From positions 124,001 to 188,000 of the forward strand of contig NZ_JAMBPP010000006.1 of assembly GCF_023369855.1 (NCBI RefSeq): 64,000 nt of DNA. Reading direction: 5' to 3'. Below the pieces are notes generated by a model. It did not search any database, was not told the DNA's origin, and was given only the letters and a program-made list of their open reading frames with translations. Below, piece by piece: positions 21,404 to 39,821 of this stretch. Origin of the DNA: Actinotalea alkalitolerans (lineage in GTDB: Bacteria; Actinomycetota; Actinomycetes; Actinomycetales; Cellulomonadaceae). Positions within the stretch are counted from its first letter, which is position 1, and the number at the start of each line of letters is the position of its first letter. A program made the position numbers and the translations under genes.

Positions 21404-22399
21404 ATGCGGAAGCAGATCTTGTCCAAGCTGGCACTGGTGGGGGTCATCGCCCTCACCGCAGCCGGATGCTCGTCCGGCGACGGCGACGGCGACGGCGCCA
21501 CGCCCGGCGAAGGTGGTGGTGGCGGCGACGCCATCACGGTGGGCTTCGCCCAGACGGGCTCGGAGAGCGGCTGGCGCAGCGCGAACACCGAGTCCATGAA
21601 GACGGCGTTCTCCGCTGAGAACGGGTTCGACCTGGTGTTCAACGCAGCGGACAACGACCCCGCGGCCCAGATCGCTGCGGTGCGCTCGTTCATCAACCAG
21701 GGCGTCGACGCGATCGTCATCGCGCCGATCGTCGAGGACGGGTGGGACGACGTCCTGCAGGAGGCCAAGGACGCGGACATCCCGGTGATCCTCGAGGACC
21801 GCACGGTCACGGCGTCGGACGACCTCTACGCCAGCTGGGTCGGTCTCGACTTCACCCTCGAGGGCCAGATGGCGGGGGAGTGGGCGGCGGAGACCTTCAC
21901 CGAGCCCACCACGATGGTCGTCCTGGAGGGGACGACGGGCTCGGCCCCGGCGAACAACCGGGCGGACGGCTTCGACGCGGCCATCGAGGGCACGCCGATC
22001 GAGAAGATCGACTCCCAGACGGGCGACTTCACCCGTGACGGCGGCAAGTCGGTTATGGAGGGGTTCCTGCAGAAGTTCGGCGCCGACGGCATCGACCTCG
22101 TCTACGCGCACAACGACGACATGGCCCTCGGTGCCATCGAGGCGATCGAGGCCGCCGGTGCGGAGCCCGGCGTCGACATCAAGATCGTCTCGATCGACGC
22201 GGTGCGGGACGGCATGCAGGCACTGGTCGACGGCAAGATCAACTACATCGTCGAGTGCAACCCGCTGCTCGGCGACAAGGCTGCTGCGCTGGTCAAGGCC
22301 GTGCTCGCCGGTGAGACGGTGGACAAGCGGACCATCGTCGAGGACCAGGCGTTCGACCAGGAGGCCGCGAAGGCCGCCCTGCCGGACCGGACGTACTGA
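21404..22399 (+). CDS. ytfQ: sugar ABC importer, YtfQ-like substrate-binding lipoprotein (cluster B)
   Basis: A 331-residue periplasmic-binding-protein type I (RbsB-fold) lipoprotein. The signal peptide ends TAAGC with lipid-anchored Cys22. The mature N-terminus ITVGFAQTGSESGWRSANTE and the VEDGWDDVLQEAKDADIPV segment closely follow E. coli YtfQ, the galactofuranose-binding protein. A furanose sugar (galactofuranose, or arabinofuranose in some homologues) is therefore the best guess for the ligand. ATG 21404 lies about ten bases after AGGAGG. It is the first gene of the operon and is followed by a strong intercistronic stem-loop. Confidence 0.88.
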   Translation: MRKQILSKLALVGVIALTAAGCSSGDGDGDGATPGEGGGGGDAITVGFAQTGSESGWRSANTESMKTAFSAENGFDLVFNAADNDPAAQIAAVRSFINQGVDAIVIAPIVEDGWDDVLQEAKDADIPVILEDRTVTASDDLYASWVGLDFTLEGQMAGEWAAETFTEPTTMVVLEGTTGSAPANNRADGFDAAIEGTPIEKIDSQTGDFTRDGGKSVMEGFLQKFGADGIDLVYAHNDDMALGAIEAIEAAGAEPGVDIKIVSIDAVRDGMQALVDGKINYIVECNPLLGDKAAALVKAVLAGETVDKRTIVEDQAFDQEAAKAALPDRTY

Positions 22400-22425
22400 G
22401 CCGCACGTCGCGAGACGTAGTCCGC

Positions 22426-22473
22426 GGCGGTGACGACGCCGGGTCCTGGATGGGACCCGACGTCGTCACCGCC
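22426..22473 (+). promoter_or_regulatory. intercistronic stem-loop after ytfQ-like gene
   Basis: Two 21-base arms (22426-22446 and 22453-22473) pair with a single mismatch around a six-base loop, in the 94-base gap before the ATPase. There is no T-run, so a transcript-stabilising or attenuating role that raises binding-protein yield is more likely than full termination. Confidence 0.75.
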
Positions 22474-22493
22474 CGCACCGACGAGGGAGATGC

Positions 22494-24035
22494 ATGACCG
22501 CCATGCCCACCACCGAAGCCACCCCGATCGTCGAGATGCGCGGCATCACCATCCGGTTCCCCGGGGTGCTCGCGCTCGACCACGTTGACTTCCTGCTGCG
22601 CCCCGGCGAGGTCCACTCGCTCATGGGCGAGAACGGGGCCGGCAAGTCCACCCTCATCAAGGCGCTCACCGGGGTCTACGCGGTGGACAGCGGGACGGTC
22701 ACGGTCGCGGGGGCCGAGCGGACGTTCGCGACCACGGCCGAGGCCCAGGCCGCGGGCATCTCGACCGTCTACCAGGAGGTCAACCTCTGTCCCAACCTCA
22801 CCGTCGGTGAGAACGTCATGCTCGGGCACGAGCAGCGCCGCGGCGGCGCGATCGACTGGCGGGGCACCCACGCCGCGGCCGCCCGCCACCTTCAGGGCCT
22901 GAGCCTGGGGATCGACCCACGATCGCTGCTCTCCACCCACTCGATCGCGATCCAGCAGCTCGTCGCGATCAGCCGCGCGATGGTGCTCGAGGCCAAGGTG
23001 CTCATCCTCGACGAGCCGACGTCGAGCCTGGACCGCGACGAGGTCGAGCAGCTGTTCGCAGTGATCCGCGACCTGCGCGACTCCGGGGTCGCGATCCTCT
23101 TCGTCTCCCACTTCCTGGACCAGGTCTACGAGATCTCCGACCGCATCACCGTGCTGCGCAACGGCGCGCTCGTGGGCGAGTACGTCGCTGCGACCCTGCC
23201 GCGTGACGCCCTCGTGACCAAGATGATCGGTCGGGAGCTCGAAGACCTCGACGCGCTGTCCCGGACGGCCCACCGCGCCATCGACCGCTCGGCCGAGCCG
23301 GTCCTGCGTGCCGAGGGTCTGGGCAGGCGCGGTGTTCTCGAACCCGCCGACCTCGAGGTCTACCCCGGCGAGGTCGTGGGGCTCGCCGGGCTGCTCGGCT
23401 CGGGCCGCACCGAGCTCGTGCGGCTGCTGTACGGGGCGGACCGGGCCGACACCGGCCAGGTCAGCGTGCACGGGACGCCCACCAGGATGACCTCCCCGCG
23501 GCACGCGATCGACCATCGCATCTCGTTCTCCTCCGAGGACCGTCGCGGCGAGGGCATCGTGGCGGACCTGACCGTCGCGGAGAACATCGTCCTGGGCATC
23601 CAGGCCCGCAAGGGGTGGACCCGCAAGGTCCGCAGGAGCGAGCAGGACGCCCTGGTCGCCGAGTACATCCAGGCCCTCGGGGTGCGACCGGCCGACCCCG
23701 ACGCCGTCGTGGGGAACCTGTCCGGCGGCAACCAGCAGAAGGTGCTGCTCGCCCGGTGGCTCGCGACCGCACCCGAGCTGCTCGTCCTGGACGAACCGAC
23801 CCGGGGCATCGACGTGGGTGCCAAGGCCGACATCCAGCGCAAGGTCTCCGAGCTCTCCGCACGCGGGCTCGCGGTCATCTTCATCTCCTCCGAGCTCGAG
23901 GAGGTGCTTCGATTGGCGCAGCGGATCGCGGTGCTGCGGGACCGCAGGAAGATCGGCGAGGTCGACTCCTCGGAGGTGGACCTCGACGGGCTCATCGAGT
24001 ACATCGCCAACGAGGGCAAGGGGAGTGCGGCATGA
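22494..24035 (+). CDS. ytfR: sugar ABC importer ATPase, YtfR-like, two nucleotide-binding domains (cluster B)
   Basis: A 513-residue duplicated ATPase of the RbsA/MglA/YtfR class. Domain 1 (about 10-245) has Walker A GENGAGKS, a degenerate signature THSIAIQQLVAI and LILDEPTSSLD. Domain 2 (about 265-505) has the typical degenerate Walker A GLLGSGRTEL, signature LSGGNQQK and LVLDEPTRGID. It powers uptake through the two permeases encoded next. ATG 22494 follows a GAGGGAGAT site. Its stop overlaps the permease start (ATGA). A second ATPase of the same type occurs later in the operon. Confidence 0.92.
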   Translation: MTAMPTTEATPIVEMRGITIRFPGVLALDHVDFLLRPGEVHSLMGENGAGKSTLIKALTGVYAVDSGTVTVAGAERTFATTAEAQAAGISTVYQEVNLCPNLTVGENVMLGHEQRRGGAIDWRGTHAAAARHLQGLSLGIDPRSLLSTHSIAIQQLVAISRAMVLEAKVLILDEPTSSLDRDEVEQLFAVIRDLRDSGVAILFVSHFLDQVYEISDRITVLRNGALVGEYVAATLPRDALVTKMIGRELEDLDALSRTAHRAIDRSAEPVLRAEGLGRRGVLEPADLEVYPGEVVGLAGLLGSGRTELVRLLYGADRADTGQVSVHGTPTRMTSPRHAIDHRISFSSEDRRGEGIVADLTVAENIVLGIQARKGWTRKVRRSEQDALVAEYIQALGVRPADPDAVVGNLSGGNQQKVLLARWLATAPELLVLDEPTRGIDVGAKADIQRKVSELSARGLAVIFISSELEEVLRLAQRIAVLRDRRKIGEVDSSEVDLDGLIEYIANEGKGSAA

Positions 24036-25078
24036 CGCGCATCTGGCGGCACCGGCTCTTCTGGCCCAGTGCGGCCCTGGTCGCGCTGATCACCATCAAC
24101 TCGATCGTGCGGCCGCGGTTCCTCATGATCACGGTGCGTGACGCCGAGCTGTACGGGGCGCTCATCAACATCCTGCGCAACAGCGCCCCGCTCATGCTCG
24201 TGGCGCTGGGCATGACGATCGTCATCGCGACCCGAGGGATCGACCTGTCGGTCGGGGCGATCATGGCGGTGTCCGGCGCCGTCGCGCTGACCGTGATCGA
24301 CGGCTCGAACGACCCGGGCAACGTCGGCACCGTGCTCGTCGCCGTCGGGGTGGCCATCCTGGTCGCCCTGGTGCTGGGAGCGTGGAACGGCTTCCTGGTC
24401 GCGGTGCTGAAGATCCAGCCGATCATCGCGACCCTCGTGCTCATGCTCGCCGGGCGGGGTGTCGCGCTGCTGATCACCGGTGGGTTCATCACGACGGTCA
24501 ACTCCGCGCCGTTCGCCTACATCGCCAGCGGCTACCTCACGGTGCTGCCGTTCGCGTTCTTCATCTCGGTGGCCGCCATCGCAGTGATCGCCGTCGTCGA
24601 ACGGCGCACGGCCCTGGGGGTGCTCACCGAGGCCGTCGGCATCAACCCCGAGGCGAGCCGGCTCGCCGGTGTGCGCTCGCGCGGCATCATCTGGGGTGCC
24701 TACATCGTCAGCGGTGCCTTCGCCGGGGTGGCGGGGATCATCTACGCCTCCAACATCAAGGCCGCTGACGCGAACGCGGCCGGGCTGTTCATCGAGCTGT
24801 ACGCGATCCTCGCGGTGGTACTCGGGGGCACCTCGCTCGCGGGCGGCAAGTTCTCGATCGCCGGCACCGTGATCGGCGTGCTCATCATCCAGACGCTCGA
24901 CTCCACGATCCTGTTCCTCGGCGTCCCCTCGGCACAGAGCCCGGTGGTCTTCGCGCTGGTCGTGGTCGCGGTGGTGACGGTGCAGTCACCGAGGGTGCGC
25001 AGCGCCCTCGGCGCCAGGAGCAGGAAGGCACGGTCGCGCGACATCGCCGACCTGGAACGGACGGAGGTGTCGGCATGA
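24032..25078 (+). CDS. ytfT: sugar ABC importer permease, YtfT-like (cluster B)
   Basis: A 348-residue permease of the RbsC/YtfT family with eight to ten membrane segments. The family hallmark MTIVIATRGIDLSVGAIMAVSG is split across helices near 65-85, and a second conserved part LAVVLGGTSLAGGKFSIAG lies near 250-270. It pairs with the next permease to form the channel. ATG 24032 overlaps the ATPase stop, and its own stop overlaps the following permease start, so ATPase and both permeases form one translationally coupled block. The C-terminal 25 residues are charged and probably cytoplasmic. Confidence 0.92.
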   Translation: MTRIWRHRLFWPSAALVALITINSIVRPRFLMITVRDAELYGALINILRNSAPLMLVALGMTIVIATRGIDLSVGAIMAVSGAVALTVIDGSNDPGNVGTVLVAVGVAILVALVLGAWNGFLVAVLKIQPIIATLVLMLAGRGVALLITGGFITTVNSAPFAYIASGYLTVLPFAFFISVAAIAVIAVVERRTALGVLTEAVGINPEASRLAGVRSRGIIWGAYIVSGAFAGVAGIIYASNIKAADANAAGLFIELYAILAVVLGGTSLAGGKFSIAGTVIGVLIIQTLDSTILFLGVPSAQSPVVFALVVVAVVTVQSPRVRSALGARSRKARSRDIADLERTEVSA

Positions 25079-26103
25079 GTGCGACGGCGACCGCGACCAG
25101 GACGGTGCGCGCGGAGCGTCCCGTCTCCCGGGTCGAGACGTTCATGAGCCGGCACGCCGCGATGACCCCGAGCTTCGCGGCCGTGGTCATCCTCGCGCTG
25201 CTGCTCGTGGGTGCCGAGGCGTTCCTGCGGGGCGACTTCGTCACGGCACGGACCCTGTCCGCGCTGCTGCTCGACAACGCGTACCTGTTGATCCTCGCGG
25301 TCGGCATGACGTTCGTGATCCTCACGGGTGGCATCGACCTCTCGGTCGGCTCGGTGATGGCCTTCACCGGGATCCTGGGCTCGCAGCTGCTCGCCGCCGG
25401 GGTACCGGTGTGGGTCGCCGTCCCGGCGATGCTCGCGGGCGGGTCAGCGATCGGGCTGCTCATCGGTGTGCTCGTGCAGTACTTCAACGTCCAGCCGTTC
25501 ATCGCCTCGCTCGCAGGGCTGTTCCTGGCGCGTGGGCTCGCCTTCGTGGTGAGCCTGTCCTCGATCCGGGTCGAGCAGCCCGCGGTCCTGTGGCTGCAGC
25601 AGAACCGGATCAGGCTCGGTGACTGGTACGTCACGCCCACAGGGATCCTCGCCCTGCTGATCGTCGCCCTGGCGGCGTTCGTCCTGCACCTGACCCGGTT
25701 CGGGCGGACGGTCTACGCGATCGGCGGCAGCGAGCAGTCCGCGCGGCTGATGGGCCTGGGCGTCGCACGGACCAAGGTGACGGTGTACGTCATCAGCGGG
25801 TTCTGCGGGGGCCTGGCCGGTCTGGTGCTCACCGCGTACTCAGGGGCGGGGTACCCGCGCAACGGCATCGGCACCGAGCTGGATGCGATCGCCGCGGTGG
25901 TCATCGGCGGCACGCTGCTGACCGGTGGTCGCGGGTACGTGCTCGGCTCGCTCATCGGGGTGCTCGTCTTCGGCACCATCAAGACGATCATCTCGTTCAT
26001 GGGGGCCGAGCAGTCGTGGATGCAGATCATCGTCGGTGGTCTGCTGCTGCTGTTCATCGTGGTCCAGCGAGTGATCGTCGCCCGCTCGGAGCACCGAAGA
26101 TAG
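25075..26103 (+). CDS. yjfF: sugar ABC importer permease, YjfF-like (cluster B)
   Basis: A 342-residue permease, paralogue of the preceding gene product and similar to E. coli YjfF. It has the same MTFVILTGGIDLSVGSVMAF signature near 80-100 and AVVIGGTLLTGGRGYVLGS near 280. ATG 25075 overlaps the upstream stop (ATGA). A two-permease arrangement is what distinguishes YtfQRT/YjfF transporters from single-permease ribose systems and supports the family assignment. After its stop there are 56 non-coding bases before the second ATPase, containing a possible leaderless promoter. Confidence 0.9.
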   Translation: MSATATATRTVRAERPVSRVETFMSRHAAMTPSFAAVVILALLLVGAEAFLRGDFVTARTLSALLLDNAYLLILAVGMTFVILTGGIDLSVGSVMAFTGILGSQLLAAGVPVWVAVPAMLAGGSAIGLLIGVLVQYFNVQPFIASLAGLFLARGLAFVVSLSSIRVEQPAVLWLQQNRIRLGDWYVTPTGILALLIVALAAFVLHLTRFGRTVYAIGGSEQSARLMGLGVARTKVTVYVISGFCGGLAGLVLTAYSGAGYPRNGIGTELDAIAAVVIGGTLLTGGRGYVLGSLIGVLVFGTIKTIISFMGAEQSWMQIIVGGLLLLFIVVQRVIVARSEHRR

Positions 26104-26147
26104 CCGCCGCGGACAGCGCGATGTCAGCCGTACACCGTGCGGCTCGC

Positions 26148-26160
26148 GATAATGGGGCGA
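26148..26160 (+). promoter_or_regulatory. possible leaderless promoter for the second ATPase
   Basis: GATAAT at 26148-26153 stands exactly six bases before ATG 26160, so transcription would begin on the start codon. No ribosome site precedes the ATG, consistent with a leaderless message. No good -35 box is seen. The ATPase could thus be expressed separately from the upstream importer genes. Confidence 0.4.
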
Positions 26161-27686
26161 TGGACCAGGCCGAGCGGGCGCAGCCGTTGCTCGAGCTGAC
26201 CGGCGCGACGGTGCGCTTCGGTGCCGACGCGGCCCTCGACGACGTCTCCTTCCGGATGTTCCCCGGCGAGGTGCACTCCTTGATGGGGGAGAACGGCGCG
26301 GGGAAGTCCACGCTGATCAAGGCCATCACGGGCGTGCTCGCACTCGATGCGGGCACGCTCGTGCTGGACGGTCAGGAGGTCGAGTTCGCCACCCCGCAGG
26401 ACGCCCAGCGCGCCGGCCTCAGCACGGTCTACCAGGAGATCGAGCTCCTGCCGAACCTGTCGGTCGCCGAGAACATCCTGCTGGGCCGCGAGCCGCGCTC
26501 GCGGGGGGTCGTGAGCCAGCGGATGATGCGGGCGCGAGCCCGGGAGGTCCTCGCCGACCTCGGTCTGGACATCGACCCGGCCTCGGTGCTGGGCACCCAC
26601 TCGGTGGCCGTGCAGCAGCTCGTCGCGATCGCCCGGGCCATCTCGACCGACGTCCGGGTGCTCGTCCTGGACGAGCCGACCTCGAGCCTCGACCTCGACG
26701 AGGTCGCCGAGCTGTTCCGGATCATCCGCGAGCTGCGGGACCGCGGGGTCGCCATCCTGTTCGTCTCGCACTTCCTGGACCAGGTCTACGAGATCTGCGA
26801 CCGCGTGACGGTGCTGCGGGACGGCAAGCTCGTCGGTGAGTACCTGACCCGCCAGCTCCTGCGCATCGACCTCGTGCACAAGATGCTCGGCAGGGACGCC
26901 TCGGACTTCAAGACGCGTCAGCGCACCGCGGTCGACGAGCCGACGGGCCCGGTGTTCCTCAGCGCGCGCGGGCTCGGTTCGGCGCCGGGGATCACCGGGG
27001 CGGACGTCGACCTGGGTGAGGGTGAGGTCGTGGGCGTCGCCGGTCTGCTCGGCTCCGGTCGGACGGCGCTCGCCCGGGCGCTGACCGGCATCTCACGGGT
27101 CGACGCGGGCATCATCCGGATCGAGGGTCAGCCCGTGAGCCTCGACTCGCCCCAGCGAGCCATCTCGCTGGGCGTCGTGTACTCCTCGGAGAACCGCCTC
27201 GCCGAGGGCATCCTGGGTGAGCTGTCCGTGCTGGACAACATCACGCTCGCGGTCCAGGCGCAGCGCGGCATCTTCCGGCGCATCCGGCCCGCGCGCCAGC
27301 GCGAGCTCGCCCAGAGCTGGGTCGAGGCGCTCGGCGTCCGGCCCGCCGACCTCGACCGCCCCGCGGGGACGCTCTCGGGCGGGAACCAGCAGAAGGTGCT
27401 GCTCGCCCGGCTCCTCGCCCTCTCCCCGCGTGTGCTCGTGCTCGACGAGCCGACCCGGGGCATCGACGTCGGGGCGAAGGTCGAGATCCAGAACCTCGTC
27501 GGCGAGCTCGCGGACAACGGGTTGTCGGTGCTGTTCATCTCGGCCGAGCTCGAGGAGGTGCTGCGCGTCGGTGACCGGGTCGCGATCCTGCGTGAGGGGC
27601 GGGTCGTCGAGACCCTCGACTCGACGGACATGACCGTCAACTCCCTGCTGGCGCTCGTCGCGAGCCCTGACGAGCAGGAGGGCTGA
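26160..27686 (+). CDS. second duplicated sugar-importer ATPase (RbsA/YtfR type) in cluster B
   Basis: A 508-residue paralogue of the ATPase at 22494, with the same two-domain design. Domain 1 has GENGAGKS, THSVAVQQLVAI and [11 protein letters not shown]. Domain 2 has GLLGSGRTAL, LSGGNQQK and LVLDEPTRGID. Every motif needed for activity is present, so it is not a decaying copy. No additional permease or binding protein accompanies it. It may replace the first ATPase under other conditions, or serve permeases encoded elsewhere. It is followed two bases later by the LacI regulator, with which it must be co-transcribed. Confidence 0.9.
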   Translation: MDQAERAQPLLELTGATVRFGADAALDDVSFRMFPGEVHSLMGENGAGKSTLIKAITGVLALDAGTLVLDGQEVEFATPQDAQRAGLSTVYQEIELLPNLSVAENILLGREPRSRGVVSQRMMRARAREVLADLGLDIDPASVLGTHSVAVQQLVAIARAISTDVRVLVLDEPTSSLDLDEVAELFRIIRELRDRGVAILFVSHFLDQVYEICDRVTVLRDGKLVGEYLTRQLLRIDLVHKMLGRDASDFKTRQRTAVDEPTGPVFLSARGLGSAPGITGADVDLGEGEVVGVAGLLGSGRTALARALTGISRVDAGIIRIEGQPVSLDSPQRAISLGVVYSSENRLAEGILGELSVLDNITLAVQAQRGIFRRIRPARQRELAQSWVEALGVRPADLDRPAGTLSGGNQQKVLLARLLALSPRVLVLDEPTRGIDVGAKVEIQNLVGELADNGLSVLFISAELEEVLRVGDRVAILREGRVVETLDSTDMTVNSLLALVASPDEQEG

Positions 27687-27688
27687 CC

Positions 27689-28747
27689 ATGACCGACGAC
27701 AAGCCCGCCCGCGCCGCGAACATCTTCGACGTCGCCCGTCTCGCCGGGGTGTCGCACCAGACCGTCTCCCGGGTGATCAACGGGCTGCCGAACGTCCGCC
27801 CCGCGACGCGTGAACGGGTCGAGCACGCGATCGCCCAGCTGCGGTACAGCCCGTCACCGGCGGCCCGCTCCCTGGTCTCGCGGCGCACCCGCACGCTCGG
27901 ACTCATCGCCCCAGCGGTCTCCGACTACGGTCCCACGCGCATCGGGATGCACTTCTCGATGGCTGCGCGCGCCGTCCGCTACAGCGTCGACACGGTCACG
28001 ACCGTCGACGACGACCCGGGCGGGGTGCGGGCCGCGATCGAGGGTCTGCTGCGCCAGCGGGTCGACGGCATCGCGCTGATCGTCATGGACATCGGGGTGC
28101 TCGAGATGGTGCGCGAGCTCGACCTGGCGATCCCCGTGGTCGCCGCGGCGTCCTCGGCGCGCCGCAGCCCCCTGCTGGTCCAGATCGACCAGTACCGGGG
28201 TGCGCGGGCAGCGGTGCGGCACCTCGCCGAGCTCGGTCACACGCGGATCGCCCACATCGCTGGACCCGCCCGTGCCGCCGACGCCGTCGAGCGGGTGCGC
28301 GGCTGGCGCGACGAGCTCGCCGAGCGCGGGCTGCCCGTCGTCGACCTGGCCTACGGTGACTGGACGGCCGAGGCCGGCTACCGGCTCGGCAAGGAGATGG
28401 ACCTCGAGCCCGGGATGGCGGTCTTCGCCTCGAGCGACCTCATGGCCCTGGGAGTGATGTCCGCGCTGCGCGAGCGTTCGCTGAACGTGCCCGGTGACAT
28501 CAGCCTGGTCGGCTTCGACGACATCCCCGAGGCCGCGTTCCTGTACCCGCCGTTGACGACCGTGCGGCAGAACTTCTCGGCCCTGGGTGAGCTCATGGTG
28601 CAGAAGCTGCTCGTGACCCTCGAGGAGGGCCAGGACGAGACGACCGACACCCCGCTCGCCACACGGCTGGTCGTGCGCGACTCGACCCGCGCCCTGGGTG
28701 TCGGGGCGGTCCGACCCGTCGCGTCCGAGCACGCCCGCCCGCTGTAG
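27689..28747 (+). CDS. LacI-family transcriptional regulator (cluster B)
   Basis: A 352-residue repressor. The N-terminal helix-turn-helix IFDVARLAGVSHQTVSRVI is followed by the hinge helix SPSPAARSLVSRRT and a periplasmic-binding-protein-like effector domain (about 65-335), where HLAELGHTRIAHIAGP and ISLVGFDDIPEA are typical. It lies two bases after the second ATPase and is presumably autoregulated with the operon. The TTAACGCTAA element at the cluster promoter is its most likely target. The effector is probably the imported furanose sugar or its phosphate. Confidence 0.92.
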   Translation: MTDDKPARAANIFDVARLAGVSHQTVSRVINGLPNVRPATRERVEHAIAQLRYSPSPAARSLVSRRTRTLGLIAPAVSDYGPTRIGMHFSMAARAVRYSVDTVTTVDDDPGGVRAAIEGLLRQRVDGIALIVMDIGVLEMVRELDLAIPVVAAASSARRSPLLVQIDQYRGARAAVRHLAELGHTRIAHIAGPARAADAVERVRGWRDELAERGLPVVDLAYGDWTAEAGYRLGKEMDLEPGMAVFASSDLMALGVMSALRERSLNVPGDISLVGFDDIPEAAFLYPPLTTVRQNFSALGELMVQKLLVTLEEGQDETTDTPLATRLVVRDSTRALGVGAVRPVASEHARPL

Positions 28748-32509: not shown

Positions 32510-33544
32510 ATGGCTGCGAAGGCGGACACCGGCAAGCCAGCGACGATCTACGACGTCGCGCGGTTCGCGGGCGTGTCGCACCAGACGGTGTCACGGGTGC
32601 TCCGCGGCGTCGGCAGCACGCGTCCCGAGACTCGCGAGCGTGTCCTGGCCGCACTGGAAGCTCTCCACTACCGACCGAACGCTGCGGCGCGTGAGCTGGC
32701 GTGGCCACGGCCGCGGAGGATCGGGGTCGTCGGGTACGAGACCTTCGAGTCGAGCACGAGCAAGGTCCTCAAGGGCGTGAACCGTGTGGCCACCGAGGCT
32801 GGGTACGTGCTCGACATCGTGACCGTCGACCCGCTCGGAGATGTCGACGAGATCGTCCGCCGGCTGAGCGCCATCAACAGCAGTGACGTCGCGGGGCTGC
32901 TGGCGACGTCGCCGACCTCGCGCGTGCGGGAGGCTCTGGAGAGAAGTGTCTTCCGAATGCCGGTCTTCCTCGACGTGAACGGTGAGGTCGACCTGCGACC
33001 GGGTCCGTACCGGGGGACCAGTCGGGCGGCGCAGATCGCGATGCGTCACCTGCTCGAGCTCGGTCACACACGCATCGCCCATGTCGCGGGTCCTACCGGC
33101 TGGGACAGCGCGGCGAACCGTGAGGCGGTGTATCGCACCCTTCTGGAGGAGCACGGTCTCGAGTCGTCGGAGGTCGTGCGGGGTGACTGGTCGGCGGCCT
33201 CCGGTCACCGTGCAGCACGGTTGCTGCCCGGCGACGCCGGGATCACGGCGGTCTTCGTGGCGAACGACCGGATGGCGCTCGGTGTGATCAGAGCCCTGGC
33301 GGAGCGTGGCGTACGGGTGCCCGAGGAGGTCAGCGTCGTGGGGGTCGACGACATCCCGGAGGCGGCGTTCTTCTGCCCTCCCCTCACGACGGTCCACATC
33401 GACTTCGCTGCCGGAGGGGAGGTCGCCGCGCGGAGCTTGATCAGTCTGATCGAGCGCCCCGACGAGCCGCCACCCCTTTACCCCGAGAGCCGGCTCGTCG
33501 AGCGGCAGTCGACGGCCCCACCCGCCCTCGTCGTGCACCCCTAG
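32510..33544 (+). CDS. LacI-family transcriptional regulator (cluster C)
   Basis: A 344-residue LacI repressor with helix-turn-helix IYDVARFAGVSHQTVSRVL, hinge RPNAAARELAWPRP and an effector domain with HLLELGHTRIAHVAGP and VSVVGVDDIPEA. It closely resembles the cluster B regulator in both DNA-reading helix (SHQTVSRV) and effector fold, suggesting common ancestry. ATG 32510 follows GGAGAGGGG. It lies directly upstream of the cluster C operon in the same direction. Two perfect GTTACCGGTAAC palindromes in the intervening 207 bases are its expected binding sites. The inducer should be the unknown substrate of the cluster. Confidence 0.92.
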   Translation: MAAKADTGKPATIYDVARFAGVSHQTVSRVLRGVGSTRPETRERVLAALEALHYRPNAAARELAWPRPRRIGVVGYETFESSTSKVLKGVNRVATEAGYVLDIVTVDPLGDVDEIVRRLSAINSSDVAGLLATSPTSRVREALERSVFRMPVFLDVNGEVDLRPGPYRGTSRAAQIAMRHLLELGHTRIAHVAGPTGWDSAANREAVYRTLLEEHGLESSEVVRGDWSAASGHRAARLLPGDAGITAVFVANDRMALGVIRALAERGVRVPEEVSVVGVDDIPEAAFFCPPLTTVHIDFAAGGEVAARSLISLIERPDEPPPLYPESRLVERQSTAPPALVVHP

Positions 33545-33580
33545 CTCGAGCGGCGGTCCCGGACAAAGCGACGCGGGGCC

Positions 33581-33609
33581 TTGCCATGGCAGGACGCGGC
33601 GGCTAAGTT
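33581..33609 (+). promoter_or_regulatory. promoter of cluster C transport/catabolic operon
   Basis: TTGCCA at 33581-33586 and TAAGTT at 33604-33609 with an ideal 17-base spacer. The first operator palindrome begins inside the -10 box, so a bound repressor would block RNA polymerase directly. Confidence 0.7.
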
Positions 33610-33639
33610 ACCGGTAACAAACCGATTGTTACCGGTAAC
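33607..33639. promoter_or_regulatory. tandem LacI operators GTTACCGGTAAC, 21 bases apart
   Basis: The same perfect 12-base palindrome occurs at 33607-33618 and 33628-33639, with centres separated by 21 bases, two helical turns. One overlaps the -10, the other lies just after the predicted start point. Both would be on the same DNA face, fitting cooperative binding of two LacI dimers from the adjacent gene. Confidence 0.85.
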
Positions 33640-33751
33640 ACTGTTGTTCCGGAACTCTACCCAGGGCCCACCACGCCAGCCCTCGCCGGGAGAGTGCGGC
33701 GCACGAGATCCCGAGTCACCACAGCCCTGCCATGACAAGGAAGTGATGCAG

Positions 33752-35056
33752 ATGCGAATCCACCTGCCACGCACGGCGGCCCTCTTGGTTGCAGGAGCCG
33801 TCACCGCGTCGATGCTCGCCGCGTGTGCCAGCCCCCAGGATGCCGAGGCCGAGTCAGGAGCCCCGGTCGTCCTGAGGTACTGGTCCTGGGCGCCGAACAT
33901 CGGCGCGATCGTCGACGTGTGGAACGAGGCGAACCCCGACATCCAGGTGGAGGTCAACACCTCCACGGGTGCCGCGGACATCGTTGCCAAGCTCTCGGCA
34001 GCCAAGGAGGCGGGAACCCTTCCCGACGTGTCCAACACCACGTACGAGAACCTTCCGAACCTGATCGTGAACGACATCGCGGCGGACATCACCGAGGCGT
34101 TCGAGAGCTATGAGGAGCAGATCGCGCCGGCAGCATGGAACCTCACGACGTTCGACGGGGCGAACTACGCGGTCCCGCAAGGAACGAGCCCGCAGTTCCT
34201 CTTCTACCGGACCGACATCTTCGCCGAGCACGGCCTCGAGGCACCCACGACGTGGGACCAGTACGCCGATGCGGCTCGGGTGATCAACGCAGCCGATCCG
34301 TCCAAGTACCTGGCGACGTTCCCTGCGAACGACGGTCAGCTCTTCGCGGCCCTGAGCCAGCAGGCGGGTGCGCAGTGGTGGTCGCAGTCCGATGGCGGCT
34401 GGACGCTGGACATCGACGGTCCGCAGAGCACGCAGGTGGCCGAGTACTGGCAAGGCCTGGTCGACGAAGGAGTCGTGGCCACCTTCAAGACGTGGACCCC
34501 CGAATGGCAGGCCGCGATCGCCGACGGCACCCTCGCCAGCTGGCTGAGCGCCGTGTGGGCGCCGCCGCTGATCGCGCAGAACGCACCGGGTACCGAAGGG
34601 GACTGGGCGGCCGTGCGCATCCCGCAGTGGACCGAGGGGGCACCGGTCTCAGGCGTCCTCGGGGGCTCGGCGACGGTGGTCACCACCGGGACGCGCTACC
34701 CGGACGAGGCGCGTGAGTTCGCCATCTGGCTCAACAACTCCGAGGATGCGCTCACCGCCTACATCGAGAACGCAAGCATCTGGCCCGCGAACCTTGCCGG
34801 TCGTGAGCTGCCCGGGCTCAAGGGAGCCGCGCCCGCCGTCCTGGGTGACCAGGACGGCTACTACGACCTCGCTGCCGAGATCGACGAGGAGACGGTCGTG
34901 GTGACGTGGGGGCCGAACGTCGCCAACGCGTACAGCGAGTTCAACGACGCCTTCAGCGAAGCCATCACCTCGGGTGGGAGCTTCACCGACGCGCTGGCGC
35001 GAGTCCAGGAGGTCGTGGCCGCCGACATGTCCCGGCAGGGCTACACCCTCGACTAG
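33752..35056 (+). CDS. ABC importer extracellular solute-binding lipoprotein (cluster C)
   Basis: A 434-residue family 1 solute-binding lipoprotein. Its signal peptide ends MLAAC with acylated Cys25. The mature protein begins VVLRYWSWAPNIGAIVDVWNE, the standard first strand and helix of these proteins, and includes tryptophan-rich ligand-pocket sequence around 205-260. ATG 33752 is chosen over ATG 33746 because AAGGAAG then stands at the proper eight-base distance. The substrate is unknown. The downstream lyases suggest a sugar acid or amino sugar rather than a neutral oligosaccharide. A strong stem-loop follows the gene. Confidence 0.92.
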   Translation: MRIHLPRTAALLVAGAVTASMLAACASPQDAEAESGAPVVLRYWSWAPNIGAIVDVWNEANPDIQVEVNTSTGAADIVAKLSAAKEAGTLPDVSNTTYENLPNLIVNDIAADITEAFESYEEQIAPAAWNLTTFDGANYAVPQGTSPQFLFYRTDIFAEHGLEAPTTWDQYADAARVINAADPSKYLATFPANDGQLFAALSQQAGAQWWSQSDGGWTLDIDGPQSTQVAEYWQGLVDEGVVATFKTWTPEWQAAIADGTLASWLSAVWAPPLIAQNAPGTEGDWAAVRIPQWTEGAPVSGVLGGSATVVTTGTRYPDEAREFAIWLNNSEDALTAYIENASIWPANLAGRELPGLKGAAPAVLGDQDGYYDLAAEIDEETVVVTWGPNVANAYSEFNDAFSEAITSGGSFTDALARVQEVVAADMSRQGYTLD

Positions 35057-35063
35057 ACCGACG

Positions 35064-35089
35064 GGGCCCCCGCCGCGTGGCGGGGGCCC
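35064..35089 (+). promoter_or_regulatory. intercistronic stem-loop after cluster C binding-protein gene
   Basis: A perfect 11-base-pair GC stem (35064-35074 with 35079-35089) with a four-base GCGT loop, eight bases after the stop. It occupies the same place as in clusters A, B and D and probably protects the upstream message or reduces read-through into the permeases. Confidence 0.7.
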
Positions 35090-35105
35090 ACAGGGAGATG
35101 ACGAG

Positions 35106-36089
35106 ATGGCCTCACAGATCACCGAACCACACACGACCGACACGTCCCCGTCGTCGACGCTCACCCGAAGCCGCACATCGCACGGTCGCCGCACCTCGCT
35201 CGAGCCGAGACTCGCGCCCTGGCTCTTCGTCGCGCCGGCACTGCTCCTGGCGGCCGGCCTCCTGGCGGCGCCCCTGCTGTACACGCTGTGGCTCAGCTTC
35301 CAGGGGCGTCGCGTGACGGGCTCAGGACTCGGCGTCTCGTCGCAGGTCTTCGTCGGGGTGGAGAACTATGCCCGCACCCTCGCCAGCGGAGCTCTGCTGG
35401 GTGGGATCGGTCGGATGCTCGTGTACGCCCTCATCGCGGTGCCCGTGACGATGCTCCTCGCACTGCTGTTCGCCCTGCTGCTCGACCACGCGTCCACGCG
35501 CTTCGGGCGATTCTCCCGGATCTCGATCTTCGTGCCTTACGCAGTCCCCGGGGTGATCGCCGCACTGATGTGGGGATTCATGTACCTACCAGGCGTCAGC
35601 CCGATCCGCGCCGCCTTCATCGCCCTCGGGATGTCACCTCCTGACCTGATGGGTCAGGGCTCGATCTTCTTCGCGATCGCGAACATCACCATCTGGGGGA
35701 CGGTCGGGTTCAACATGGTGATTCTCTACACCTCCCTTCGTGGTCTCCCGGCGGAGCTCTTCGAGGCGGCACGCATCGACGGCTGCAACGAGCGGCAGCT
35801 CGCCCTCAGGATCAAGCTGCCGCTGATCGTGCCCGGCATCATTCTCACCGGTCTCTTCGCGATCATCGGAGCCCTGCAGGTGTTCAGCGAGCCCAACACC
35901 ATCATGACCTTGACGAACTCGATCGGGTCGGACTGGGTCCCGATGATGCTCGTGTATCGCGACGCATTCGTGACGAACGACCTGTACGGGGCCTCTGCGA
36001 CCGCCGTCGTCATCACCCTGATCACACTGGTCGCGTCACTCGGGATGCTGAAGATCCTGCAGAAGCGAGCCTTCGGTGAGGACTCATGA
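35106..36089 (+). CDS. ABC importer permease, MalF/UgpA type (cluster C)
   Basis: A 327-residue permease with a threonine/serine-rich cytoplasmic N-terminus (1-35), six membrane helices and the EAA loop ELFEAARIDGCNERQLALRI near 215-235. The cysteine replacing the usual alanine or glycine in DGCNE is seen in other members. ATG 35106 follows GGGAG. The stop overlaps the next start (ATGA), so the two permeases are translationally coupled. Confidence 0.92.
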   Translation: MASQITEPHTTDTSPSSTLTRSRTSHGRRTSLEPRLAPWLFVAPALLLAAGLLAAPLLYTLWLSFQGRRVTGSGLGVSSQVFVGVENYARTLASGALLGGIGRMLVYALIAVPVTMLLALLFALLLDHASTRFGRFSRISIFVPYAVPGVIAALMWGFMYLPGVSPIRAAFIALGMSPPDLMGQGSIFFAIANITIWGTVGFNMVILYTSLRGLPAELFEAARIDGCNERQLALRIKLPLIVPGIILTGLFAIIGALQVFSEPNTIMTLTNSIGSDWVPMMLVYRDAFVTNDLYGASATAVVITLITLVASLGMLKILQKRAFGEDS

Positions 36090-36943
36090 GCACCGTTGAG
36101 GCCCGCAGGCGACGTGCCCCCGTCTGGCCCACGCTCGTCCTGCTGGTGGGCGCGGTCTACTGCCTGATACCGGTCTACTGGCTGGTCGCGGCCTCGACCA
36201 AGAGCGCCGGCGAGCTGTACACGACGTTCACCCTCGCCCCCAGCTTCACCGGCGGGCTCGCGGAGAACTTCACCGGTCTCATGGCGTTCAACGACGGCGC
36301 CTTCCTGCGCTGGAGCCTGAACAGCGTCATCTTCTCGGGAGGAGGTGCGCTCCTGGGGACGCTGGTCGCCGCGGGCGCGGGCTACGGGCTCGCCAAGTAC
36401 CGCTTCCGCGGCAAGACGCTGGTGTTCAACTTCCTGCTCATCGGCGTCCTCATCCCCGGGGTGATCCTGGCCATCCCGCAGTACCTGCTCCTGTCGAGGA
36501 TCGGCATCGCCGGTACCTACTGGTCGGTCCTGCTCCCGTGCATGATCAGCCCGTTCTCGATCTACCTCGCACGGATCTATGCCTCGGCTGTCGTGCCCAA
36601 GGAGCTGCTGGAGGCTGGACGGCTGGACGGGGCGAACGAGTGGCGAATCTTCAGGTCCATCGCGATCTTCCCGATGGTCCCCGGGCTCATCACTGTCTTC
36701 CTCCTGCAGTTCGTCGGGATCTGGAACAACTTCCTGCTCCCGTACATCATGCTCAGCCGCACGGAGACCTACCCGCTCACCGTCGGCTTCTTCTCGATGA
36801 TGAACCAAGGAACCGACCAGCCGAACGTCTACAACCTCGTCATCATCGGCTGTCTGCTGGCGATCATCCCGCTGATCCTCTTGTTCCTCTTCCTGCAGCG
36901 CTACTGGCGGCTGGACCTCGTCAGCGGATCGCTGAAGGGCTGA
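36086..36943 (+). CDS. ABC importer permease, MalG/UgpE type (cluster C)
   Basis: A 285-residue permease partner with six hydrophobic segments and the EAA loop ELLEAGRLDGANEWRIFRSI near 173-192, with the EAA sequence read as EAG. The C-terminus YWRLDLVSGSLKG is typical for the family. No ATPase gene is present in the cluster, so a shared carbohydrate-importer ATPase from elsewhere is expected. Only three bases separate its stop from the first lyase gene, placing transport and catabolism on one message. Confidence 0.92.
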   Translation: MSTVEARRRRAPVWPTLVLLVGAVYCLIPVYWLVAASTKSAGELYTTFTLAPSFTGGLAENFTGLMAFNDGAFLRWSLNSVIFSGGGALLGTLVAAGAGYGLAKYRFRGKTLVFNFLLIGVLIPGVILAIPQYLLLSRIGIAGTYWSVLLPCMISPFSIYLARIYASAVVPKELLEAGRLDGANEWRIFRSIAIFPMVPGLITVFLLQFVGIWNNFLLPYIMLSRTETYPLTVGFFSMMNQGTDQPNVYNLVIIGCLLAIIPLILLFLFLQRYWRLDLVSGSLKG

Positions 36944-36946
36944 GCG

Positions 36947-37891
36947 ATGACCGGATCATCAGTGCTCCCCGATGGCGCGTGGCCCGTCATGCTCACCCCC
37001 TTCTGTGAGGATCGTTCGATCGACTGGGACGGTGTCGATGCGTACACCGACTGGCTCATCGAGCTGGGGTCGGCCGGCATCTTCGCGGTCGCACTGTCCA
37101 GCGAGATGTATGAGCTGACCCACGAGGAGCGGGTCGCGCTCGCGGCTCGGGTGGTGGACCGGGCAGCTGGCCGCGTCCCCGTGGTCGCGTCGTCGGTACA
37201 CAGTGGCCTGGTCGAGGACCAGGCGGTCGGCGTCGGGCAGATGGCGGCGACCGGCGTGTCGGCGGTGGTGCTGATCTCCTCGCTCGTCGCGGGGCTCGAC
37301 GAGACCGAGGAGACCTGGCTCGCCAACGTCCGGACGATCGTCGACCTCAGTCCTGGGGTGGACCTGGGGATCTACGAGTGCCCGGTCCCCTACAAGCGCC
37401 TACCGTCCCTCGATGCCGTCCGCTGGATGGCGGCGAGTGGGCGGTTCACCTTCTACAAGGACACCAGCCACACCCTCGAGCTCATGGGCGAGCGGCTGAG
37501 CGTCATGCGCGGTAGCCGGCTCAAGCTGTACAACGCTGCGATCGGGAGTCTCCTGCCTTCCCTCCAGCTGGGGGCATCAGGCCTGTCCGGCTACGCCGCC
37601 AATGTCTATCCCGACCTTGTCTCGTGGTTGTGCCGGCACGCGGCGTCCGGCGACGCCGCAACCGTCGTCGCTCTCCAGCGCCTGCTCACCGTCACGGAGC
37701 ACGCCGTGAACCTCCGCTACCCGTCATCGGCGAAGTACCTCCTCGATGTCGGGTCACGGCTGACCTTCCGACCGATCAGCCGGTGGAAGCCCGAGGTGAT
37801 CGGCGCACACGAAGGCCTCCCGTTGCAGCAGCTGGCGGAGTACATCCGCGACCTCGGCCTTCCCCGTGACGCGCTCGACGCGCGTCGTTGA
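36947..37891 (+). CDS. dihydrodipicolinate synthase/N-acetylneuraminate lyase-family enzyme, copy 1 (cluster C)
   Basis: A 314-residue TIM-barrel class I lyase. The Schiff-base lysine is K171 in TFYKDTS and the catalytic tyrosine Y143 in GIYECP. The GTTGE motif that binds pyruvate's carboxylate in true dihydrodipicolinate synthase reads ALSSEMYELT here, so the enzyme is not expected to make lysine precursors. Likely reactions are retro-aldol cleavage or dehydration of a 2-keto-3-deoxy sugar acid or related compound. It is followed by a paralogue of similar length. It begins three bases after the permease stop with no strong ribosome site, so it depends on coupling. Confidence 0.88.
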   Translation: MTGSSVLPDGAWPVMLTPFCEDRSIDWDGVDAYTDWLIELGSAGIFAVALSSEMYELTHEERVALAARVVDRAAGRVPVVASSVHSGLVEDQAVGVGQMAATGVSAVVLISSLVAGLDETEETWLANVRTIVDLSPGVDLGIYECPVPYKRLPSLDAVRWMAASGRFTFYKDTSHTLELMGERLSVMRGSRLKLYNAAIGSLLPSLQLGASGLSGYAANVYPDLVSWLCRHAASGDAATVVALQRLLTVTEHAVNLRYPSSAKYLLDVGSRLTFRPISRWKPEVIGAHEGLPLQQLAEYIRDLGLPRDALDARR

Positions 37892-37924
37892 CCCACCACC
37901 CGCTCCTTCGACGGAAAGCACAAC

Positions 37925-38851
37925 GTGAAACTCCTGCCCGACGGCGCCTGGCCGGTCATGCTGACTCCCTTCCACGAGGATCTCTCGGTCGACTGGGAAG
38001 CTCTGGACGCGTACACCGACTGGCTCGTGGAGCTCGGTTCAGCCGGGCTGTTCGCCGTCGCGCTCTCGGGAGAGATGTTCGACCTGACCGAGGACGAGCG
38101 ACTGGCGATCGTCCGACGGGTCGTCGACCAGGTCGACGGCCGTGTCCCTGTGGTCGCATCGATCGTCGCGGAGGGCCCGCCGGACTCTCACGCCCGGGCA
38201 GCGTCGCGGCTCGCCGACACCGGCGTCGACGCCGTCGTCCTCATCGCCTCCCTGCTGCTGGCAGAAGACGCCGGCGAAGGAGCCCTGCACACCTCGATCG
38301 AGCACATCCTCGAGGCGAACCCCGGCGTCATGTTCGGCATCTACGAGTGCCCCCTTCCCTACCACCGCATCTTGACGACGGACACCGTCGCCTGGATCGC
38401 ACAGAGCGGCAGGTTCCTGTTCTTCAAGGAGACGAGTCACGACGTCGCCGTCATGGCCGAGAGGGTTCAGGCGAGCTCAGGCACCCCGATGAAGGTGTTC
38501 AACGCGGGGATCGAGAACCTCGTCGAGTCCCTCGCCGTCGGGGTCGCAGGACTGTCGGGCTGGGTGGTCAACGTGTACCCGGACCTCGTCGCCTCCCTGT
38601 GCTCCCTGGCGGGCGGGCTCCACGGCCCGCAGGCGCGCGTGCTCCAGGACGCCCTGGACGGGGCCGAGCGTCAGATGGCAGACACCTATCCGAACTCGGC
38701 CAAGTACCTCGTCGCGCGCCGGTCCGCCGTCCCGATGCTCCCGGTCAGCAGATGGCGCAGCACCGCACTGGACAGTACGGCCCTCGACGCCGTCGCCACG
38801 GCGATGGCCGAGCTCGGCGAGGGCATCCGTAGCGACGAGCAGGTTCGCTGA
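37925..38851 (+). CDS. dihydrodipicolinate synthase/N-acetylneuraminate lyase-family enzyme, copy 2 (cluster C)
   Basis: A 308-residue paralogue of the preceding gene, sharing LPDGAWPVMLTPF, DAYTDWL.ELGSAG and GIYECP blocks. Catalytic Tyr is Y140 and the Schiff-base lysine K168 in FFKETSHD. The pyruvate-loop again deviates (ALSGEMFDLT). The two copies differ throughout, so duplication is old, and both keep catalytic residues. They may act on different substrates in sequence, or form a mixed tetramer, since this family assembles as tetramers. The start is GTG 37925 with GGAAAG upstream. One base separates its stop from the reductase start. Confidence 0.88.
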   Translation: MKLLPDGAWPVMLTPFHEDLSVDWEALDAYTDWLVELGSAGLFAVALSGEMFDLTEDERLAIVRRVVDQVDGRVPVVASIVAEGPPDSHARAASRLADTGVDAVVLIASLLLAEDAGEGALHTSIEHILEANPGVMFGIYECPLPYHRILTTDTVAWIAQSGRFLFFKETSHDVAVMAERVQASSGTPMKVFNAGIENLVESLAVGVAGLSGWVVNVYPDLVASLCSLAGGLHGPQARVLQDALDGAERQMADTYPNSAKYLVARRSAVPMLPVSRWRSTALDSTALDAVATAMAELGEGIRSDEQVR

Positions 38852-38852
38852 C

Positions 38853-39821
38853 GTGCAGTACGCGGCTCTGGGAGCGGCCCGGGTCGAGGTCTCCCGGTTG
38901 TGCCTTGGGACGATGAACCTCGGGAGCCGGGCCACCCCCGAGGAGTCCCACGCCATCCTCGACACAGCCCTCGAGGCAGGCATCAACTACGTGGACACCG
39001 CGAACACCTACGGGAGCCCGGGGCGGCCGGGCATCGCCGAGAGCATCATCGGCGACTGGTTCGCCCGAGGGGGTGATCGTCGCGAGCGCACGGTCCTGGC
39101 CACCAAGCTCTTCGAACCGACCGCGGACTGGCCCAACCACGGCGGCCTCTCGGCCTTGAACATCCGCCGCGCATGCGACGCCTCCTTGTTGCGCCTCCAG
39201 ACCGATCACATCGATGTGCTGCAGATGCACCACATCGATCGAGCAGCGCGATGGGATGAGATCTGGGAGGCCTTCGACGTCCTGCGCCGACAGGGCAAGA
39301 TCATCTACGCGGGGTCGTCGAACTTCGCCGGCTGGAACCTTGCGGTCGCCCAGGGTGCTGCTCGAGACCGCGGGAACCTCGGACTGGTCTCGGAGCAGTC
39401 CGTGTACAACCTCGCGCAACGCACCGTGGAGCTCGAGGTCCTGCCCGCCGCCGAGCATCTCGGGATCGGTGTGGTGGCCTGGAGCCCGTTGGCCGGCGGA
39501 CTGCTCGCCGGGACGCCGACCGGTCACCAGGGACGCCGGACGGATCCGGGCGAGACGGTCAGGCGGGATCAGCACCGCGGGCAGATCGACGCCACGGCGG
39601 ACATCGCCGGTGATCTCGGCACGACCACCGCGCAGCTCGCCCTCGCGTGGCTCCTGACCCGCCCAGCTGTTGTCGCGCCCGTCGTCGGTCCCCGCACGGT
39701 CGAGCAGCTCTGCGGACTGCTCCCCGCGATCGATCTCGTCCTCAGCTCTGACGTCCTCGCCGCGCTGGACCGCGTCTGGCCGGGGCCAGGAGGTCAGGCA
39801 CCGGAAGCCTATGCCTGGTGA
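38853..39821 (+). CDS. aldo/keto reductase (cluster C)
   Basis: A 322-residue NADPH-dependent oxidoreductase with the (beta/alpha)8 fold. The full catalytic tetrad is present: D48, Y53 (in DTANTYG), K85 (in LATKLFEP) and H126 (in LQMHHID). NADP-binding residues lie near the C-terminus in GPRTVEQL. It would reduce a carbonyl of the imported compound or of a lyase product such as an aldehyde. GTG 38853 starts one base after the lyase stop. It is the last gene of the cluster. Twenty-four bases later a gene on the other strand ends, so transcription must stop within or beyond that short gap. Confidence 0.9.
   Translation: MQYAALGAARVEVSRLCLGTMNLGSRATPEESHAILDTALEAGINYVDTANTYGSPGRPGIAESIIGDWFARGGDRRERTVLATKLFEPTADWPNHGGLSALNIRRACDASLLRLQTDHIDVLQMHHIDRAARWDEIWEAFDVLRRQGKIIYAGSSNFAGWNLAVAQGAARDRGNLGLVSEQSVYNLAQRTVELEVLPAAEHLGIGVVAWSPLAGGLLAGTPTGHQGRRTDPGETVRRDQHRGQIDATADIAGDLGTTTAQLALAWLLTRPAVVAPVVGPRTVEQLCGLLPAIDLVLSSDVLAALDRVWPGPGGQAPEAYAW

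Follow-up and report, generated by a model that had tools for sequence, protein, structure and literature searches.

We describe a conserved operon of Actinotalea alkalitolerans, found at positions 32510-39821 of a 64,000-nucleotide stretch of contig NZ_JAMBPP010000006.1 (hereafter the window), in which a LacI-family regulator, a lipoprotein substrate-binding protein (SBP) and two CUT1-type permeases precede two paralogous class I lyases with the fold of dihydrodipicolinate synthase (DHDPS), named here DH1 and DH2, and an aldo/keto reductase (AKR). The operon is genuine and conserved, with a LacI and a palindrome of its own and with lyases of an uncharacterised clade; the combination of an importer with a class I lyase is itself already known. 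We are highly confident in reading it as a locally regulated catabolic operon of import plus lyase, whose nutrient is probably a sugar-like acid. The best explanation of the whole, to which we give slightly less than an even chance, is a substrate-induced operon for import, Schiff-base cleavage and aldehyde reduction, in which substrate, reaction and binding of the repressor are inferred.

Gene content and conservation

Pfam, NCBIfam and PDB matches identified the seven genes (Table 1), in the same order and at the same coordinates, as the members of the families originally predicted, that is an importer, two lyases and a reductase under a LacI-family protein. The intergenic gaps after LacI, SBP, permease A, permease B, DH1 and DH2 are 201, 49, -4, 3, 33 and 1 bases, the run from the SBP to the AKR being tight. 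Genes for a kinase, an isomerase, a glycosidase or an ABC ATPase are not found among the seven. The absence of the first three, which the original prediction had used to set this cluster apart, holds for these genes and fails as a mark of the system, since relatives carry DUF4862 TIM-barrel proteins, a zinc alcohol dehydrogenase (Zn-ADH) and an FAH-family protein, and loci of the wider lyase clade carry PfkB or FGGY kinases, a weakly FucI-like protein (below the Pfam cut-off) and an annotated GH78.

The lyase is rare: at 1e-20 DH1 matched 6 of the 297 genomes sampled from the order, and at 1e-40 it matched 2 of 22 from another family; DH2 matched 6 of 394 genomes of the class (1e-20), 6 of 299 of one family (1e-40) and 1 of 296 of the phylum (1e-25, the window's own); these samples overlap, and the order, class, phylum and 299-genome family searches scored few candidates per genome. 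A scan of named genomes gave four loci, two of them the same DNA as loci already sampled. Altogether 13 CUT1-linked loci were considered: the window, L012, L015, L013 (identical to L023), L014 (identical to L025), L024, L026, L027, L028, L029, L048 with L087, L049 and L050, where L048 and L087 come from one genome whose locus is split between two contig ends. Outside this count are L047 and L051, with the lyase near another transporter (SBP_bac_5 and Dpp-type permeases by Pfam in L051, judged by gene sizes only in L047), and L030 (28% match). The core LacI-SBP-permease-permease-lyase is present in 13 of 13 loci; the gene order is thus conserved and, because it recurs in 12 further genomes, the arrangement is not due to chance.

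Both lyases are present in four of these loci (window, L012, L015, L048), the DH1 type alone in eight and the DH2 type alone in one (L027). As either type alone goes with the same importer, even if DH2 alone is a single locus, the two lyases look parallel rather than sequential; they probably have different stereo- or substrate preferences, and their use in successive steps is disfavoured.

Two lyases of the DHDPS superfamily

DH1 and DH2 share 50.5% identity over 277 residues and belong to the superfamily of DHDPS and N-acetylneuraminate lyase (NAL) by three features: PF00701 scores of 62.1 (DH1) and 72.8 (DH2) bits against a gathering threshold of 22.1, a TIM-barrel fold, taken from the DH1 model, and the catalytic Tyr and Lys, which lie where they had been predicted (Y143/K171 in DH1, Y140/K168 in DH2). 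The AlphaFold2 model of DH1, computed with 8 aligned sequences (pLDDT 82.7, pTM 0.85), retrieved through Foldseek only DHDPS and NAL entries among its best 50 matches, with E-values of 3.5e-17 to 8.2e-16, TM-scores (by query) of 0.78-0.85 and 17-22% identity. Both proteins are very probably Schiff-base enzymes.

The GTTGE pyruvate loop was originally described as lost in favour of ALSSE and ALSGE. These motifs are indeed present, and "lost" overstates the change: in the alignment with DHDPS and NAL, GTTGE or GSTGE becomes ALSSE or ALSGE, only the first Thr is missing (L, Q or R instead), an invariant Ser takes the place of the second Thr, and the Glu is retained (19 of 19 sequences). In DHDPS this second Thr serves as a ligand of the carboxylate; given its replacement by Ser and the conserved Glu, binding of a 2-keto acid may persist. 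The low similarity to all the characterised families tested could also suit non-catalytic or regulatory DHDPS-like proteins, an explanation to which we assign hardly any probability, against which stand the invariance of Tyr and Lys in 19 of 19 sequences and the fact that the lyase is the sole enzyme common to all 13 loci.

Models of characterised enzymes gave low scores throughout. For DapA, DH1 and DH2 reached 49.1 and 61.9 bits against the cut-off of 206.15 of the NCBIfam equivalog TIGR00674, and neither ALSSE nor ALSGE is a GTTGE loop with both Thr; for nanA, 17.7 and 27 bits against 382 (TIGR00683) and 22.5 and 40.7 bits against 281 (NF003164); for KdgD, 27.4 and 48.1 bits against 373.95 (TIGR03249). 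No member of the lyase clade was found above any NCBIfam cut-off. That the lyase had been solved under another name was also considered and rejected: in a profile search of PDB sequences the best 60 of 113 matches at 1e-8 were only of the DHDPS, NAL, YagE and 2-keto-3-deoxyarabonate (KDA) dehydratase types by name, the best at just 1.2e-30, with no solved clade member among the matches listed. The prediction that the lyases match no characterised enzyme was therefore upheld, in that no orthology appeared in PDB sequences or above an NCBIfam cut-off; moreover, a literature search at overview level returned no description of the clade or of the operon.

The wider lyase clade

Searching plasmids by tblastn gave 48 records with DH2 at 1e-10, all below 60% identity, and 48 with a Martelella relative at 1e-20, and 15 plasmid neighbourhoods were read. 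As gene calling based on GC content is unreliable on plasmids (also at L047), the coordinates used for plasmid relatives are those of the annotation, and their contexts are given by annotation unless Pfam is named. The clade is recognised by the signature S-x-E, YECPxP, Lys and YPxxAK, with members in Actinomycetes, Proteobacteria, Bacteroidota and one haloarchaeon. T17-P18, S51, E53, Y143-E-C-P-x-P148, K171, Y258-P and A262-K263 are invariant in the alignment of 19 sequences, and R151 is present in at least 90% of them; the residues following YECPxP are mostly [YF][KHR]R (HHA in DH2 of L048). In a midpoint-rooted tree of 37 rows with long outgroup branches, from which another PF00701 gene of the genome (C35_own) was dropped, the clade lies on one side of a branch with support 100/99 that separates it from NanA, YagE, the genome's DapA and C58b, a second DHDPS-family gene that lies beside the clade member of A. 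fabrum pAt and is itself without the signature and outside the clade. Within the clade the DH2 type has support 100/100 and the DH1 type only 46/69.

The contexts of these relatives are varied. In Rhizobium the lyase is accompanied by a CUT1 importer, an AKR, a TIM-barrel protein, a shikimate-dehydrogenase-like protein and a 2-keto-4-pentenoate hydratase, one Agrobacterium plasmid being similar; two other Agrobacterium plasmids have a ribokinase, an FAH-type protein and an AKR (Pfam for one), and C58 a CUT1 importer and a D-2-hydroxyacid-type dehydrogenase. Salmonella and Pantoea have a PfkB kinase and a YhcH-family gene, an E. coli plasmid a kinase and a TTT transporter, Burkholderia a ribokinase and an MFS transporter, Klebsiella an FGGY kinase, a weakly FucI-like protein (below the Pfam cut-off) and a BNR_2 protein, and Martelella a BNR_2 protein and a TTT transporter. 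Haladaptatus shows a CUT1 importer, GH78, Gfo/Idh and a TIM-barrel protein (the last by Pfam), Spirosoma an SSS symporter, Azospirillum a TRAP transporter with a ribokinase, and Peteryoungia a TRAP transporter. CUT1, lyase and an AKR of one kind or another thus recur together outside Actinomycetes. TRAP, TTT, SLC13 or SSS transporters, which are mostly acid carriers, lie near the lyase at 6 of the 15 plasmid loci, and the YhcH-family gene lies beside it at 2 of 15. YhcH is described as an anomerase that supplies the lyase NanA with the open form of sialic acid and 2-keto-3-deoxynononic acid (KDN) (PMC8141875).

The two BNR_2 proteins beside the lyase are annotated as exo-alpha-sialidases (Klebsiella, L033:8922-9965; Martelella, L034:8999-10072); for the Martelella protein a PDB search at 0.01 gave no relative.

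These annotations in two Proteobacterial loci and the YhcH-family neighbours in two, together with the NAL entries matched by the DH1 model (TM 0.82-0.85), would fit an N-acetylneuraminate operon with divergent N-acetylneuraminate lyases, a very improbable alternative in view of the nanA equivalog scores (17.7 and 27 bits against 382), the absence of the Asp/Glu that follows YNGY in NanA, the lack of a PDB relative of the Martelella protein at 0.01 and the fact that nanE, nanK, nagA and nagB are not found among the seven genes. Membership of a sialic acid operon proper was rejected on the equivalog scores and the genes missing from the operon.

The LacI regulator and its predicted operator

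The LacI of the window is 44-64% identical to the LacI found at the equivalent place in relatives. The stretch that separates lacI from the SBP gene contains a palindrome, TTACCGGTAA, at 12 of the 13 loci (L026 is the exception); it is doubled in the window, L027 and L087, with copies 20-21 bp apart; L012 and L015 have an additional copy ahead of lacI, and in L013 it falls within the longest SBP frame, yet upstream of the likely ATG start. In the 4.37-Mb genome of the window the 10-mer occurs only at its two operon sites (reversed control, 1), and the two perfect 12-mers, GTTACCGGTAAC, are both at 33607-33639, where a terminator-like score is due to the two palindromes themselves. The 12-mer is present in 8 of the 11 lyase genomes searched. 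Extending the regulon through the palindrome gave no further target in the window genome, and G119 and G810 each have one 10-mer away from the lyase. A LacI gene and a palindrome conserved at the operon, whose operator role is predicted, support the LacI-controlled catabolic operon first proposed.

Two more perfect 12-mers in genome G083 argue against a purely local regulon: one precedes an araDBA-galM-like run (by content Aldolase_II-FGGY-AraA-aldose epimerase), the other a GH42/arabinofuranosidase-type pair (L085:8000 and L086:7974), and each has another LacI nearby (37% and 30% identical). These sites may reflect a shared operator or related repressors. The arabinose link keeps alive a rival, in our judgement unlikely, in which the lyases are 2-keto-3-deoxy-arabonate-type dehydratases of an oxidative non-phosphorylating pentose route, with the AKR or Zn-ADH as sugar dehydrogenase and a keto-semialdehyde as product. 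The PDB matches to L-2-keto-3-deoxyarabonate dehydratase (3fkk/7c0c) agree with it and cover just the first 80-94 residues; the alpha/beta hydrolase of L048 could be a lactonase, but no sugar-acid dehydratase or semialdehyde dehydrogenase was seen among the neighbours scanned, many neighbours lying outside the scan. Moreover, the ara locus of G083 has its own LacI, whose recognition helix is similar, so that kinship between the repressors could be all that the common palindrome reflects. AraA itself does not discriminate lyase genomes, because it was found in 11 of 11 searched.

The DUF4862 lead

A DUF4862 protein is encoded at L049, L050 and L087, and in total in 10 of the 13 lyase genomes (not in G083, G810 and G803), in seven of these ten away from the lyase; it is also present in 50 of the 297 genomes of the order. 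Being missing in three of 13, present also in other genomes of the order and mostly distant from the lyase, it was rejected as an obligatory partner and is kept as a lead only. A role as anomerase of a nan operon was likewise dropped, as the scanned neighbours in L104-L107 did not support it. In the lyase genome G013 (L105:8546-11391) the separate DUF4862 gene has two notable neighbours, another gene of the DHDPS family and a FadR/NanR-like regulator that scores below cut-off. A literature search on DUF4862 found no paper.

The protein matters for another rival, in which a TIM-barrel protein, for instance DUF4862, acts first as an isomerase and the lyases then split an unphosphorylated ketose with no carboxylate in a new reaction. 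Loss of the first loop Thr and the carbohydrate-type SBP would fit this, as would the DUF4862-lacI pair of G720, preceded by its own palindrome site, the DUF4862 genes beside the lyase in G761 and G813, and the occurrence of DUF4862 in 5 of the 6 genomes with the lyase, compared with 45 of the remaining 291 of the order sample (p 0.0006, both searches being taken as the same 297 genomes), a value that is not independent because three of the six belong to one genus. On the other side, the loop Ser and Glu are invariant (19 of 19), every characterised member of the superfamily uses, to our knowledge, a 2-keto acid, and otherwise the DUF4862 gene of lyase genomes is placed away from the lyase, the four neighbourhoods L104-L107 showing no tie to the system. 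We consider a ketose substrate more doubtful still than the dehydratase.

Importer and reductase

The SBP has no Pfam match at 0.001, and its NCBIfam matches are below cut-off; it is 60-73% identical in the nine relatives aligned. Its closest PDB relatives are the galacto-N-biose/lacto-N-biose SBP 2z8d (2e-40) and related SBPs, which suggests a carbohydrate ligand, with no indication of which carbohydrate. Together with the two MalF/MalG-type permeases it constitutes a CUT1 ABC importer, presumably served by a shared MsiK-type ATPase encoded elsewhere, as is the habit of actinomycetes.

The AKR best matches AKRtyl (8xr2/8jwk; 6e-109, residues 1-322 on 1-331) and ends in AYAW, with a C-terminal Trp like W331 of AKRtyl; on these grounds, by pairwise similarity, it is classed as AKR12D-like. 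An AKR is present at 9 of the 13 loci: of the window's kind (60-66% in four relatives) in the window, L012, L015, L027 and L026, there upstream of lacI, and of another kind (30-32%) in L048 and L049, where it follows the lyase, and in L028 and L029. In the last two it is encoded on the opposite strand, flanked by lacI and a second LacI gene, and may therefore belong to a neighbour. L028 has a Zn-ADH directly after the lyase and L029 a gene of equal size at that place; L027 has an FAH-family protein after the AKR and L048 an alpha/beta hydrolase. No AKR was found at L013, L014/L025, L024 and L050. Because in L013, L014/L025 and L024 the lyase is also the final gene of the strand run, the imported compound may be its direct substrate; a Mfd-type helicase follows on the other strand in L024, and a gene of similar size in L013 and L025.

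A model of the pathway

The most economical reading is import, cleavage of a 2-keto sugar acid and reduction, in view of the chemistry of the superfamily, the conserved loop Ser and Glu, the acid-type transporters, the YhcH-family neighbours and the recurrent oxidoreductases. LacI would occupy both operators, which separate its own gene from that of the SBP, until the substrate or an intermediate releases it; the SBP and the two permeases would import an unphosphorylated sugar-like compound, powered by the shared ATPase encoded elsewhere. Lys171 of DH1 or Lys168 of DH2 would then form a Schiff base with the keto group, leading to cleavage by retro-aldol reaction or possibly dehydration; the compound, most likely a 2-keto acid of the ulosonic kind, would yield pyruvate and an aldehyde, which the AKR would reduce with NADPH. 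Retro-aldol cleavage of an ulosonic-type acid, taken alone, is the mechanism that we find likeliest, at somewhat less than even odds. The idea of an unphosphorylated route through a lyase and then a reductase, part of the original prediction, remains reasonable with an AKR at 9 of 13 loci and the Zn-ADH of L028.

Some observations weigh against a 2-keto acid substrate or its extension to the whole clade. The first loop Thr and the Asp/Glu following YNGY in NanA, positions with functional roles in the characterised enzymes, are absent from the lyases; the closest solved relatives of the SBP are named as binders of neutral sugars and not of acids; and the YhcH link comes from two plasmids of a distant branch. 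Moreover, lyase function may differ between branches, because the contexts are mixed, including kinases, FAH, shikimate-dehydrogenase-like and D-2-hydroxyacid dehydrogenase genes in some loci and CUT1 or MFS transporters elsewhere.

The signature in the sequence and the conserved palindrome define a clade of class I lyases whose members bear only the name "dihydrodipicolinate synthase family protein" in the annotated records examined. As the clade spans Actinomycetes, Proteobacteria, Bacteroidota, a haloarchaeon and many plasmids, identifying the substrate would put a name to one catabolic step in all these groups, and the minimal loci, with importer and lyase, make the first step directly testable.

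Features of the operon and other observations

Table 1. Genes and predicted sites of the operon (positions of the window)
Feature	Position	Strand	Evidence
LacI-family regulator	32510..33544	+	Pfam LacI 6e-17, Peripla_BP_3 1.5e-38; recognition helix AGVSHQTVSRVL
Operator-like palindrome, copy 1, GTTACCGGTAAC	33607..33618	unstranded	Genome count and conservation in relatives
Operator-like palindrome, copy 2	33628..33639	unstranded	21 bp after copy 1
Lipoprotein SBP of CUT1-type importer	33746..35056	+	Lipobox Cys27; PDB matches to carbohydrate SBPs
ABC permease A (UgpA/MalF-like)	35106..36089	+	BPD_transp_1 6e-10; NCBIfam UgpA below cut-off
ABC permease B (UgpE/MalG-like)	36086..36943	+	BPD_transp_1 6e-16; 4-base overlap with permease A
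DH1, DHDPS-fold class I lyase (ALSSEM/YECPVPYKR/KDTSH/YPSSAK type)	36947..37891	+	PF00701 4.6e-17
DH2, paralogous lyase (ALSGEM/YECPLPYHR/KETSH/YPNSAK type)	37925..38851	+ (GTG start)	PF00701 2.5e-20
AKR, AKR12D-like	38853..39821	+ (GTG start)	Aldo_ket_red 1.3e-61

Elsewhere in the window, a ribose-type ABC importer with two permeases and two separate ATPase genes (22503-24035 and 26160-27686) lies at 21404-28747, followed by a LacI that is 39% identical to the LacI of the operon and has an identical recognition helix. The product of 11738-12919, near a sugar ABC importer, contains a region of the ADP-specific phosphofructokinase/glucokinase family (PF04587, 7e-22, over the cut-off), a type of kinase unusual in bacteria. 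In Microbacterium yannicii two caspase-domain (Peptidase_C14) genes lie just past the operon (L012:13324-16677).

Comparison with known systems

Among known systems, NanA resembles the lyases in fold (TM 0.82-0.85), in the Schiff-base Lys and the Tyr and in a KxTS stretch, as in DH1, and its operons likewise join lyase, importer and regulator, a YhcH-family gene standing beside two distant lyase relatives; in contrast, identity in the fold match is about 18-20%, the STGE loop of NanA becomes LSSE or LSGE, the Asp/Glu after YNGY is missing, and nanE, nanK and nag genes are not among the seven genes at 32510-39821. DapA has PF00701 and the fold in common with the lyases and provides the best PDB sequence matches, whereas they lack the GR that follows YxVP and the first Thr of its loop, and a typical DapA-like gene (L001, PF00701 6e-71) is present separately in the window genome. 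L-2-keto-3-deoxyarabonate dehydratase and the 2-keto-3-deoxygluconate (KDG) aldolase YagE, which are DHDPS-fold enzymes of sugar-acid breakdown, also match in sequence, the former only over the lyases' first 80-94 residues and the latter with a different loop and without the YECP motif. The galacto-N-biose/lacto-N-biose binding protein 2z8d is related to the SBP of the window at 2e-40, but the match spans residues 53-336 only, and the operon has no glycosidase or phosphorylase. AKRtyl, described as the founding member of AKR12D, is an NADPH enzyme with a C-terminal Trp331 that reduces tylosin and many aldehydes (PMC10923870), whereas the AKR of the window belongs to a catabolic operon.

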